Assembly (NCBI GenBank): GCA_017525475.1
Contig: JAFXST010000077.1
Location: 1-37,443, forward strand
Direction of reading: 5' to 3'
Source: Kiritimatiellia bacterium
GTDB lineage: Bacteria > Verrucomicrobiota > Kiritimatiellia > RFP12 > UBA1067
Length of the DNA: 37,443 bases
Positions within the stretch are counted from its first letter, which is position 1. Each line of letters opens with the position of its first letter. The notes beneath the pieces are model-generated. The model saw nothing but the letters and a program-made list of their open reading frames with translations. It had not been told where the DNA came from and did no database searches. Below are positions 3,064 through 18,997 of this stretch, in pieces. The translations under genes were made by a program, and so were the position numbers.

Positions 3064-4302
3064 ATGAAAAAGAGCTTGCTCGCAGTCGTAACGGTACTGG
3101 CCGCCACCGCAGGATTTGGCGCTGGATTCGGGCTTTACGAAGCTTCCTCGCGCGGTAACGCGATGGGCGGAGCGCTGGTGGGCAAGCCGGGCGACGCCAC
3201 CGCCAACTACTACAACCCCGCCGCTTTGACAGATATGACCAATATGTCAGTCTACGCCGGGTTTACGTATATCAATCCGTTCTGCGACTCCAAGGTGGAC
3301 CGGCAGAGCCAGCCCAAGATGAACGCCGGCTGGTTCTTTGCGCCGACTTTCTATCTCTCGGCGCCCATTACCGATGATCTTTCGGTTGGCTGGGGCAACT
3401 ATGCGGAATATGGCCTGGGCACCAAGTACAAGCGCGACTGGGCGCTTGCGTACGACACTACCGAGACGACGATCGAGCAGTATACGCTCAATCCCAATAT
3501 CGCCTACAAGCTTACCGATTGGTGGTCGATTTCGGCCGGTTTGCGCGTAAGCTACATCACCTTCGAAAACCGCGGCAGCCCGCTGGCCGGGCTCCCGATC
3601 CCCGGGACCGGTTTGCGTAGCCATCTTAAAGGCACCGACTGGGGTATGGGCTATATGCTGGGCACCAAGTTCAAAATCACCGAACGTCTGCACGCCGGCG
3701 TGGTGTACCGCTCGCGCATCGACCATACCATCAAGGGCGATTTCGACATGTACGGTACGACTATGGGCATTCCGACCGATGTGAGGGGGCCGGCTTCGGC
3801 CAAGCTGGCGCTGCCTGCCTCGGTGACCACCGGTATCAACTGGGATATTACCGACGACTGGCGCGTGGGCGCGACTATCATCTGGACGGAATGGCGTTCG
3901 ATCGACACCATCAATTTCTGCCTTCCCAGTACCTACAGCTACCCCGAGAAGCTCAAATTCGACAATGCTTTCCGTTACGGTATGGGTACCGAGTACGACT
4001 TTACCGATTGGCTGCAGGGCCGCCTCGGCTACGTTTACGACCTTGATCCCAGCCACGAGAAGCACGGCACCACCATGCTCCCCGCGGGTGACCGCCACAT
4101 TGCGGCTTCGGGCCTCGGCTTCAAGCTCTCGGACAATCTGCGCCTCGACGTGGGACTTAGCTTCATCTTCATGGAGCGTTCCTCGCGCGATATTCACGAC
4201 CGCAACGCCGCCAAGATGGGCATCGCCCGCAAGAGCAACCACTGGGAATGCCGCAACTCGTTCTCGTATCTCGTCTCGGCGGGGGTGACGTACAACTTCT
4301 GA
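3064..4302 (+). CDS. OmpP1/FadL-family outer-membrane transporter
   Basis: A predicted outer-membrane beta-barrel for uptake of hydrophobic compounds such as long-chain fatty acids or aromatics. The 412-residue precursor starts with a signal peptide (MKKSLLAVVTVLAATAGFGA). The FadL-type N-terminal plug signature follows: GFGLYEASSRGNAMGGA, then GDATANYYNPAAL. The rest alternates in the way expected of barrel strands (repeated GWG, GMGY and LRLDVGLSF-like segments) and ends with an aromatic residue, YNF, as outer-membrane proteins usually do. ATG 3064 is chosen because it begins the signal peptide; the frame is open slightly upstream but lies within the promoter. It has its own promoter with operator-like repeats and overlaps the tetR-type gene by one base. 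The substrate is not evident. Confidence 0.9.
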   Translation: MKKSLLAVVTVLAATAGFGAGFGLYEASSRGNAMGGALVGKPGDATANYYNPAALTDMTNMSVYAGFTYINPFCDSKVDRQSQPKMNAGWFFAPTFYLSAPITDDLSVGWGNYAEYGLGTKYKRDWALAYDTTETTIEQYTLNPNIAYKLTDWWSISAGLRVSYITFENRGSPLAGLPIPGTGLRSHLKGTDWGMGYMLGTKFKITERLHAGVVYRSRIDHTIKGDFDMYGTTMGIPTDVRGPASAKLALPASVTTGINWDITDDWRVGATIIWTEWRSIDTINFCLPSTYSYPEKLKFDNAFRYGMGTEYDFTDWLQGRLGYVYDLDPSHEKHGTTMLPAGDRHIAASGLGFKLSDNLRLDVGLSFIFMERSSRDIHDRNAAKMGIARKSNHWECRNSFSYLVSAGVTYNF

Positions 4303-4898
4303 TGGCGCGGAAGATCGACCATAAGACGCGCAGAAGCGAAATCGTGGCGGCGAGCATTAAATTGTTCGCCGTCCATGGTTATAGCGGGGTGAGCCTAGGG
4401 ATGATCGCCGATGCGTGCAAGATCTCGCGCCCGCTCCTCTACACCTACTTCAAGGACAAGCGCGACATCTTCAACGATGCCATCGCCGGGGTGACCCGCC
4501 GCGTGGCCGCCAAGTACCACGAGGTGATCCACACCCACCACAGCGCCGACGCCAAACTGCGGCAGATTTGCATAACCGCATTTGCCATGCTGTTCGACAA
4601 CCGCGACTTCGTGTGTGTCATCAGCGACTTCTTGGCGGAACTGCGGCGCCAGGGGAACCCCGTGCCGCAGTCGCACATCACGCGGCACACTTTCGGCTTG
4701 AGACGCATAATCCATTCGCTGATCATCGAGGCCATGGGCAACGGCGAATACCGCGCCAGCATCGACCCCGACCGCATCACCACCGTGCTTTATTCCCAGT
4801 TCGAGGCAGCGGCCCTGCGCATAGTGGTCACCGGCAACGCGGAACTGTCGGAATCCATCGATCAGCTCGATGGGATACTGTTTTCGCTCCGGGCTTGA
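4302..4898 (+). CDS. TetR/AcrR-family transcriptional regulator
   Basis: A 198-residue one-component repressor. Residues about 8-55 form the TetR DNA-binding domain: RRSEIVAASIKLFAVHGYSGVS, then MIADACKISRPLLYTYFKDKRDIF, the classic helix-turn-helix and following helix. The C-terminal ligand-binding part is divergent and gives no ligand clue. The start ATG shares its A with the stop of the fadL-like gene (TGATG), so translation is probably coupled. This placement suggests it controls its own operon, perhaps binding the TTTGTCAA/TTGACAAA palindrome at 2981-3004 and releasing it when the transported hydrophobic compound binds. The regulatory link is inference. Confidence 0.9.
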   Translation: MARKIDHKTRRSEIVAASIKLFAVHGYSGVSLGMIADACKISRPLLYTYFKDKRDIFNDAIAGVTRRVAAKYHEVIHTHHSADAKLRQICITAFAMLFDNRDFVCVISDFLAELRRQGNPVPQSHITRHTFGLRRIIHSLIIEAMGNGEYRASIDPDRITTVLYSQFEAAALRIVVTGNAELSESIDQLDGILFSLRA

Positions 4899-16117: not shown

Positions 16118-16693
16118 GTGAAAAAAGCCATAGTCAACGGCCGCGAAATACCGCAGGAGGCGGTGCAGTTCGAACTGGATCGCCTCGTCCGCTTCTACAT
16201 GAACCACGGCATGACCGTGGAGGAAGTAAAGACCAACCTCGCCAAGTTGCAGGACAAGGCGCTGGAGCAGGCTATCGGCGCCCGGCTCTTGCTGGACCGG
16301 GCGATGCAAATCGACTTGCCGGTTACGGCCAAGGATATCGACGCCGAGGTCGAAAAGGTGGTGGCCCAAGTTGGCGGGCGCGACAATTACGAAAAGGCGC
16401 TGGCCGCCCAAGGCATAACCGACGCCGCCTTCCGCAAGGAACTGGAGAAGGGCGCCAAGGTCAACATGCTCGTCAACCAGGCGTGCGCCCACGTGGCCGA
16501 GCCTACCGAAGAGGAAGTGACCGCCTTCTACACGGCCAACAAGGCGGAGTACGGAGCAAAGACGATTGTGGACGTGCACGATCAGATCAAGGATCTGCTC
16601 CGGCACGAGGCGCGCGGCCGGGCCATGGACATTTACGTGGAGGAACTGCGCGAATCTGCGCAAATAGAATACAAGGAGGGAAAACATGCTTAA
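16118..16693 (+). CDS. SurA-like N-terminal domain protein lacking the PPIase domain
   Basis: A 191-residue protein. Residues about 1-125 match the SurA/PrsA/NifM-type N-terminal chaperone domain (VNGREIPQEAVQFELDRLV, LEQAIGARLLLDRA, ITDAAFRKELEKGAKV). Residues about 130-140 are the usual lead-in to a parvulin domain (PTEEEVTAFYTANKAEY). The roughly 90-residue parvulin fold is absent: the chain goes straight into the closing helix (VDVHDQIKDLLRHEARGRAM, then YVEELRESAQIEYKEG). No signal peptide is visible, so it may be cytoplasmic. GTG 16118 gives the expected KKAIVNGREI start. The end overlaps the esterase gene by 8 nt. Likely a holdase-type chaperone. Confidence 0.75.
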   Translation: MKKAIVNGREIPQEAVQFELDRLVRFYMNHGMTVEEVKTNLAKLQDKALEQAIGARLLLDRAMQIDLPVTAKDIDAEVEKVVAQVGGRDNYEKALAAQGITDAAFRKELEKGAKVNMLVNQACAHVAEPTEEEVTAFYTANKAEYGAKTIVDVHDQIKDLLRHEARGRAMDIYVEELRESAQIEYKEGKHA

Positions 16694-17066
16694 TCAGGTT
16701 TTGTTGCTGGCGGTGCTCAAGCTGGGCGCGCCGTTTTCCGACGGCATGGTGCTGCAGCGGCAGATGCCCATCAAGGTATGGGGCAGCGCCGCCCCCAAAT
16801 GCGAAATCCGCGTCAAGCTCGACGGCGACAGCGCCAGGACCATGTCCGACGCCAACGGCCGCTGGCTGGTGGAACTGCCGCCGCGCGGCGCCAGCAAAAA
16901 GCCGGTGACGATGACGGTCAAGGAGATCGCTATCAACGTCCTGCCCAAGCAGACCGACGAGGTGGAGGTCAAGGACATCCTGGTCGGCGAAGTGTGGTTC
17001 GCCTCGGGCCAGTCCAACATGGAATGCCCAATCTGGGGCAAGGAGCCTCGTTACCGCGACGAGTAA
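16686..17066 (+). pseudogene. Sialate O-acetylesterase, N-terminal fragment (ends at in-frame TAA)
   Basis: Residues 1-126 of a sialate 9-O-acetylesterase-like protein, which removes acetyl groups from sialic acids or other sugars. It has a short hydrophobic N-terminus (LNQVLLLAVLK), the family's first block APFSDGMVLQRQMPIKVWG, a small beta domain, and the catalytic-serine block FASGQSNMECPIWG (Ser110, codon 17013-17015). A TAA at 17064-17066 ends it 16 codons after the Ser. The same frame resumes at 17067 with GAMMVAMTQLPNVRF, exactly the continuation expected in the family. Read through the stop, the gene would be 484 codons, the normal length. Either a recent nonsense mutation, a sequencing error, or a two-part gene. 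Confidence 0.85.
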
Positions 17067-17072
17067 GGCGCC

Positions 17073-18140
17073 ATGATGGTGGCCATGACGCAATTGCCGA
17101 ACGTGCGGTTTGTGGTGAATCAGCGCGAAATCGACGGCCAGCCCCAGGCTTCGCTGGTGCAGTTGCCGATCAAAGCGCAGTGGCGCAAGTTCACCCCCGA
17201 AGAGCTGGCTCCGCGCCCGGGCGACCTCTATACGCTTTCGGCGGTGGCTTTTTATTTTGCGCGTGAAATCTACCTGGCCACCGATGTTCCGGTGGGTATC
17301 GTGCAGTCGGCGTGGAGCGGCACGCCGATCGAACCGTGGCTACCGCCTTGCGCGACGCCGGTCAAGGAATTGGAAGGTTTTCTCGCCGCCAACGAAAACC
17401 GGGTGGATTCGAACACGCCGACGGCCCTGTTCAATGGTCTAGTGGCCGACTACTGCCCCATGGCGATGCGCGGCGTGATCTGGTATCAGGGCTGCAACAA
17501 CAAGTACGATTCGGCCGACAAGTATCGCGAGAAGATGCATGCGCTCTACGACGGCTGGTCTAAGATGTTCGAGAACCCCGACCTCAAGCTGTACTTTGCG
17601 CAGCTCGCCCCCTACCGCACCAACTGGATGAACATCTGCATGGCGCAGGCGCAATTCGCCGCCGAGGAGAAGAACGCCGCGCTGGTGGTGCTGGCGGATG
17701 CCGGCAATTTCGTGGATATCCACCCCAACCGCAAGGATATCGTGGGCCAGCGCCTCGCCATGCACGCGCTCAAGCGCGATTACGGTTTCGAGATGCCCGG
17801 CGACGAATCGCCGGTGTTGACCAATGCGGTCTTCGCCGCCGGCACGGCCACGCTGGAATTCGCCAACGCGAGCGAGTGGTACATATATTCCGCCGATCTC
17901 AATCTGGCGCCGGCGTTCGAACTGTGCGGCGACGACGGCGAGTGGAAGGCGGCGACGCTGGTCAACGAGATCGCGACCGGCGGCTATCGCCGGGGCATCG
18001 TGTCCGGCGGACCGGAGCTCGTGCTCAAGGCCGAGGGCGTGGCCGATCCCAAGCGCGTGCGCTATCTGGGCCGCGCCGGCACCGCGGGCATCCTCTACAA
18101 CGAGCTGTCGCTGCCGCTCGGGCCCTTCGAGACCAAGTGA
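17073..18140 (+). pseudogene. Sialate O-acetylesterase, C-terminal fragment
   Basis: The remaining 355 residues of the esterase, in the same frame as the N-terminal fragment, with an ATG 6 nt after the TAA. It contains VGIVQSAWSGTPIEPWLP, FNGLVADYCPMAMRGVIWYQGCNN, and the catalytic Asp/His block NFVDIHPNRKDIVGQRLA (Asp at 17715, His at 17721). The catalytic Ser is on the other fragment, so this part alone should be inactive. Reinitiation at ATG 17073 after the stop could yield two chains, and the frame downstream has no other lesion, which argues for a very recent or not real break. The stop overlaps the TrmH-type gene (TGATG). Confidence 0.83.
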
Positions 18141-18997
18141 TGGACATAACCTCCACCGCCAATCCCAAACTCAAGCACGTGGTCAAGCTCCGCACCTGCT
18201 CGGTGCGAGAAGAGTCCGGCGAGATGATTGTGGAGGGTTACCGGGAGTGCCGGCGCGCGCTCAACCACGGCTACCGGCCGCACGCCATCTTCCACTGCCC
18301 CGAGTTCTACCTAAAGAACGAGAACGAACCCGCCGTGGTGGAGGAGTGCCGTCTGGCGGGGGCCGAAGTCTATACCTGCTCGCGCGCGTGTTTCGCCAAG
18401 ATTGCCTACAAGGAGCGGCCGGACGGGCTGTTGATGGTGGGTCCGCACGTCAGCATCAAGCTTGCCGATCTCGCGCTTCCGCCCAATGCGCTCGTCATCG
18501 TCACCGAAGCCATCGAAAAACCCGGCAACCTCGGCACGATTCTGCGCAGCGCCGATGCGGCCAAGGTGGCGGCGGTGATAGTTTGCGACCGCACTACCGA
18601 TATCCACAACCCCAACGTGGTCCGGGCCTCCACGGGCACGATGTTCTCGGTGCCGGTCGTCGAAGCCACTTCCGACGAGGCGCTCGCCTTCCTCAAGGCG
18701 CGCGGTTTCAGCATCCTCGCGGCCACGCCCCATGCCGAGAAACTGCATTTCGAGGTGGATTTGACCGGTAACGTGGCCATTGCGCTGGGGGCGGAGCAAT
18801 ACGGCCTTACCGCCAAGTGGATGGACGGGGCGGATCTGCGCGTTCGCATCCCCATGCTGGGCCTCGCCGACAGCCTCAACGTAAGCGCCGCCGCCACCAT
18901 TCTCGTCTACGAGGCGGTGCGCCAGCGTTTGGCCAAGGGTATCGCCAAGGTGCCCGATTTCGTGCCGTGGCACGGCGAAGGCACCATCGACCACTAA
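18140..18997 (+). CDS. TrmH/SpoU-family RNA 2'-O-methyltransferase
   Basis: A 285-residue SPOUT methyltransferase acting on tRNA or rRNA with S-adenosylmethionine. The N-terminal substrate-binding domain (TSTANPKLKHVVKLRTCSVRE) is followed by the three SpoU motifs: motif 1 EKPGNLGTILRSADA, motif 2 IALGAEQYGL, and motif 3 IPMLGLADSLNVSAAATILVYEA, which builds the trefoil knot and SAM pocket. NVVRASTGTMFSVPV is also typical. The target nucleotide cannot be assigned. ATG 18140 overlaps the esterase stop; the next gene begins directly after this stop. Confidence 0.93.
   Translation: MDITSTANPKLKHVVKLRTCSVREESGEMIVEGYRECRRALNHGYRPHAIFHCPEFYLKNENEPAVVEECRLAGAEVYTCSRACFAKIAYKERPDGLLMVGPHVSIKLADLALPPNALVIVTEAIEKPGNLGTILRSADAAKVAAVIVCDRTTDIHNPNVVRASTGTMFSVPVVEATSDEALAFLKARGFSILAATPHAEKLHFEVDLTGNVAIALGAEQYGLTAKWMDGADLRVRIPMLGLADSLNVSAAATILVYEAVRQRLAKGIAKVPDFVPWHGEGTIDH

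Follow-up and report, generated by a model that had tools for sequence, protein, structure and literature searches.

The stretch of DNA analysed here, which we call the window, comprises 37,443 nucleotides of contig JAFXST010000077.1 from the assembly of a Kiritimatiellia bacterium (GCA_017525475.1; G000 below). It carries a gene of the sialate O-acetylesterase (SASA) family whose reading frame is split by one TAA codon. The esterase gene lies between the genes for a SurA-N-like protein and a SpoU-family RNA methyltransferase, and all three follow one another closely on the same strand. The features of the locus are as follows:

16118..16693, + strand: SurA-N-like protein gene (PF13624, 44.3 bits); its 3' end shares 8 nt with the start of the esterase ORF
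16673..16679, + strand: AAGGAGG, a strong Shine-Dalgarno-like sequence of the esterase start (duplex -11.9 kcal/mol)
16686..17066, + strand: upstream esterase part, 126 aa, closed by the premature TAA; contains the nucleophile Ser110
17007..17021, + strand: GQSNM, SGNH block I, residues 108-112, with Ser110
17064..17066, + strand: in-frame TAA; 16 of 24 distinct relatives have a codon for lysine here
17073..18140, + strand: downstream esterase part, 355 aa; its in-frame ATG follows the TAA after 6 nt
17715..17729, + strand: DIHPN, SGNH block V, residues 344-348, with Asp344 and His346
18140..18997, + strand: SpoU-family RNA 2'-O-methyltransferase gene (PF00588, 123.2 bits); shares 1 nt (TGATG) with the stop of the esterase

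The two esterase ORFs share one frame, and the sole break between them is the TAA, followed by GGCGCC and then by the ATG at 17073. Across the 485 codons there is no other stop except the terminal TGA, and reading through the TAA gives a complete product of 484 residues, with a YQGCNN motif at residues 267-272. The stop lies 17 codons after Ser110; neither part alone holds both the Ser and the His. The sequence-only reading had described two halves in one frame, jointly full length and otherwise undamaged, with an ATG 6 nt after the stop, Ser110 on the first half and the Asp/His pair on the second. The ORF coordinates, the single TAA, the ATG at 17073 and the positions of GQSNM before and DIHPN after the break bear out this description. 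A chance pair of neighboring ORFs is ruled out, as an open frame crosses the site in all 24 aligned distinct relatives.

The read-through protein matches the Pfam SASA model with 53.9 bits and the downstream part alone with 50.1 bits (cut-off 24.8); the upstream part alone has no Pfam match at E<=0.001. Both SASA/CE20 catalytic blocks are there, block I with the GQSN serine (S110) and block V with the DxH pair (D344, H346). The GQSNM and DxH motifs are those given for CE20 in PMC12313940, which also describes an ancillary domain in some CE20 enzymes. The one continuous coding frame of CE20/SASA members is interrupted here at 17064-17066; judged by its sequence, the gene is a member of the family by descent, not an intact member. 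Seven distinct solved CE20/SIAE sequences match it, namely the CE20 enzymes XacXaeA (7KMM), PpCE20_II (9EGA) and Fl8CE20_II (9H4U) and mammalian SIAE (8F9O-8F9R), with E values from 1.5e-44 (7KMM) to 6.9e-21 (8F9R). A structure model of moderate confidence, built with 6 sequences (mean pLDDT 72.2, pTM 0.73), was used only to locate the break and to match the fold; an earlier model with 4 sequences (mean pLDDT 48) was set aside. Solved CE20/SIAE structures make up the top nine Foldseek rows for the model, with 7KMM at E 1.1e-39 and a TM score of 0.62 over the query. In the alignment to 7KMM, the target jumps from 209 to 398 between query residues 223 and 242; therefore, the ancillary domain inserted in 7KMM is missing from the window esterase, as it is from SIAE. 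The gene thus appears to encode a carbohydrate esterase of the usual CE20 type (SASA/sialate O-acetylesterase family) that lacks the ancillary insert, its activity being predicted; unlike CE20 enzymes and SIAE, it is broken 17 codons past the serine. No title listed in our literature searches of one open-access library, which were directed at other subjects, reports a split CE20 esterase. The model places the break in a mostly coil stretch between the strand of residues 91-108 and the short helix of residues 131-134, a region that is itself of low confidence (below 50 at residues 110-112 and 124-129).

We surveyed 61 genomes of the genus, including the window's own, and 49 of them had an esterase match at E<=1e-30. 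The match table contains 87 rows, some being pieces of one gene, and a stop occurs only in the window's own row: the other 86, drawn from 48 congeneric genomes, contain none, and 80 of these rows extend across residue 127. Stops were scored in this table independently of the alignments, in which the frames of relatives were taken from stop to stop and are stop-free by construction, the observation there being that the frame crosses the break. The codon alignment took 22 of 29 relative loci, leaving out seven more distant ones (L024-L030), and in its 24 distinct relatives (a count without L033, which is identical to L011) the TAA column holds Lys in 16, Asn in 3, Glu in 2 and Gln, Trp and His in 1 each. 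The same codon in close relatives had been proposed as a check, and it proved to be a sense codon for lysine in the closest three: AAA in L031 and L032, and AAG in G017. TAA is one substitution away from AAA and two from AAG. A scan of genome contigs for the esterase recovered L031, L032 and L033 along with two distant loci (L034 and L035). The nearest loci come from records named as uncultured Verrucomicrobia (L031) and as Kiritimatiellae from sheep rumen and rectum (L032 and L033); L031 and L032 have a verbatim kilobase in common with loci of G076 and G052. Among viral contigs, 30 stretches fitted a pattern, and none of them coded for an esterase relative.

No clear sign of relaxed constraint was seen in either part of the gene in dN/dS, branch lengths or relative rates. 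Between the window and the three close relatives, the upstream part gives dN/dS values of 0.40, 0.29 and 0.41 (0.22-0.31 among the relatives themselves) and the downstream part 0.21, 0.30 and 0.36 (0.31-0.33 among the relatives), all of these values being rough because synonymous divergence is high (dS 0.67-1.37). Two of the three upstream values (0.40 and 0.41) exceed the relatives' own range, and this may point to some relaxation before the stop. In trees of the two parts, for which 15 of 26 rows were used, the window branch is 0.22 upstream, exceeding the L031 and L032 branches (0.11 and 0.18), and 0.26 downstream, about the same as theirs (0.25 and 0.28); the branch of G017 is longer in both (0.39 and 0.40). 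In all 10 relative-rate comparisons, amino-acid changes confined to the window were fewer than those of the relative. Taken together with the constraint data, this makes the stop look recent. Either it arose too recently, or does too little harm, for a clear trace to have been left, or the organism does not carry it; the missing decay fits a recent stop and a still functional gene alike.

Presence of the esterase gene between its neighbors was surveyed in 23 congeners, 13 of which were informative in that a single contig carries both flanking genes. The slot contains the esterase in three of these (G017, G011 and G002) and lacks it in ten (G001, G005, G008, G010, G012, G014, G015, G016, G018 and G022), where gaps of at most about 110 nt separate the flank matches. 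In G007 the esterase lies beside SpoU and the second flanking gene is on a different contig; nine congeners were uninformative. L031 and L032 likewise have the esterase in this slot. Eight of the ten congeners without it there carry a homologue elsewhere (E<=1e-30), G015 and G022 having none, and across the genus a match at this threshold is missing from 12 of 60 congeners, including the drafts G047 (90% complete) and G050 (93%). SpoU was present in 38 of 40 genomes, own included; its start in the window has a Shine-Dalgarno duplex of only -3.0 kcal/mol. The esterase gene is therefore variable in the genus, and for this reason its loss is probably tolerated: the enzyme is probably dispensable, and we infer that this extends to the species of the window. 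The window's genome has only one close copy of the gene. It also has a second SASA-family gene (L108/L109, G000:C63:3444-4214), a 581-aa open frame that is uninterrupted and distant from the window esterase. The SurA-like gene upstream (191 aa) has a structure of its own: it aligns in two pieces to homologues of about 300 aa in many congeners, and the intervening stretch that it lacks is probably the PPIase domain. Six congeners (G004, G007, G012, G016, G018 and G023) match it in one piece, with a TAG inside in G004.

The interruption might be apparent only, with the TAA being read as a sense codon through programmed readthrough or recoding, or being a wrong base in the consensus. How stops behave elsewhere in this genome bears on both possibilities. 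We compared 283,583 of the 1,315,052 bases of G000 (about one-fifth) with 704,787 bases of G017; greedy selection left 113 alignments (108,810 bases), 98 of them with an identity of at least 45% (90,879 bases), and the scan reaches only those genes that have a homologue within the compared G017 bases. Stops occur inside five of the 113 alignments, and the esterase is the sole one without another explanation: two lie, by their coordinates, just before presumed gene starts in the window (6281 and 26288), one is an out-of-frame stretch over the preceding gene in L062 (inspected), and one is, by its coordinates, on the strand opposite to the + strand ORF 4248-4898. Among 75 genes with ends matching G017, 72 had a stop within 30 codons, and these stops are TGA in 44, TAA in 21 and TAG in 7. 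TAA is therefore an ordinary stop here, not a recoded one, as the sequence-only reading had expected from other genes of the window. Although the frame is open and conserved on both sides of the TAA, no congener match keeps a stop at the site, and we regard readthrough or recoding as barely credible and reject a recoded TAA. A sequencing, assembly or strain-mixture error, with an intact gene in the organism, is unlikely on balance and still a serious contender. It fits the sequence as well as a real nonsense mutation does: the genome is a fragmented 98-contig draft that is 83% complete, the rest of the gene is undamaged, and the congener matches are stop-free. One more gene is interrupted in the sampled fifth of the genome, with a frame change relative to its G017 homologue at about 15640-15655 of L061 (G000:C15; inspected), in what we take to be a Na/phosphate-cotransporter-like gene. 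On the other hand, the change in the esterase is a substitution rather than a homopolymer indel, and real-looking interruptions are rare, these two being the only ones among the 113 alignments.

If the TAA is a genuine stop, ribosomes could terminate there and begin anew at the ATG 6 nt further along, producing two chains that together form an active esterase. The common frame and the short spacing speak for this, as does the position of the break in the predicted, low-confidence coil between the strand ending at 108 and the helix at 131-134. In the coverage of coupling distances in PMC10666635, H. volcanii pairs spaced from -8 to +6 nt count among those with efficient coupling, whereas in three E. 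coli pairs a spacing of +2 nt costs 5, 20 and 70% of coupling and +14 nt costs 40-80%; 6 nt falls between distances with measured coupling, and by analogy some restarting at 17073 is plausible. The same authors conclude, however, that coupling is far stronger in overlapping pairs than across gaps, even short ones. The Shine-Dalgarno duplex at ATG 17073 (-3.9 kcal/mol, computed, like the others, with an assumed anti-Shine-Dalgarno sequence) is far weaker than that of the esterase's own start. Among 164 internal in-frame ATGs of the window, 44.5% pair at least this strongly, and at 12 of the 24 presumed gene starts the pairing is no stronger. A better duplex forms at a third Met, 17085 (-6.3 kcal/mol). 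The +3 column holds Met in 12 of the 24 relatives, so the ATG is most likely older than the stop, and an in-frame ATG falls within the next three codons at 148 of 2160 possible nonsense sites (6.9%) in 25 chosen ORFs of the window. Compared with reinitiation pairs, then, the spacing agrees, the Shine-Dalgarno sequence does not rise above background, and a split is seen in none of the 86 rows from relatives. Neither the Shine-Dalgarno sequence, the Met column nor the congener matches gave a sign of selection for restarting, and a site evolved for reinitiation is unsupported because Met is common in stop-free relatives and the Shine-Dalgarno sequence is average. The pairs described in PMC10666635 resemble the window in their short stop-start spacing within one apparent operon; unlike them, the window's parts come from one ancestral protein, with no sign that either was selected as a subunit, and the strand bearing the serine would part from the rest of the SGNH domain. 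An active two-chain enzyme is thus decidedly improbable. A further idea, suggested by the layout and likewise improbable, is that a real TAA is buffered by a restart at the older Met; ribosomes would then stay on the operon and the weakly initiated, overlapping SpoU gene would still be translated, with or without residual two-chain activity.

Pseudogenes arising from nonsense alleles in bacteria typically show a single in-frame stop, intact relatives and a gene that is variable in the genus. The window esterase differs from typical cases in having no further decay and an in-frame ATG 6 nt past the stop. Our best reading, which we consider reasonably probable, is that it is a recent nonsense allele in early decay and that the esterase is most likely inactive. 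One substitution in the sampled lineage would have changed the lysine codon to TAA, and translation from 16686 would halt after 126 residues, that is, after the N-terminal beta-rich part and Ser110. Asp344 and His346 would be left untranslated or, at best, be placed on a separate chain after a restart at 17073. With the part bearing Ser110 cut off from that bearing Asp344 and His346, the enzyme is most likely inactive; the gene may be at a very early stage of decay, its loss probably being tolerated. The stop-free orthologues (24 of 24 aligned relatives and 86 of 86 non-self rows) argue for a recent nonsense mutation, as do the absence of the gene from the slot in 10 of 13 congeners and from 12 of 60 genomes altogether. 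Against tolerated loss, this is the sole close copy in its genome, while most congeners with an empty slot keep a homologue elsewhere; against simple inactivation, there is the nearby restart codon. The options initially considered were a very recent nonsense mutation, a sequencing or assembly error, and reinitiation yielding a two-chain enzyme. The first fits best, given AAA or AAG in relatives and no clear relaxation, and the last gained no support beyond the spacing.

As it stands, the finding is of little weight: it concerns one nonsense allele, in a known esterase family and in one draft genome. If the TAA is real, it may show the first step of gene loss, in a slot that is empty in most informative congeners. 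If a restart buffers the stop, the run of Met codons makes the break one of the few sites (about 7%) where the esterase could be inactivated without polarity. Should reinitiation prove true, the locus would offer a natural test of whether nonsense alleles persist preferentially where a restart codon shields downstream genes from polarity.
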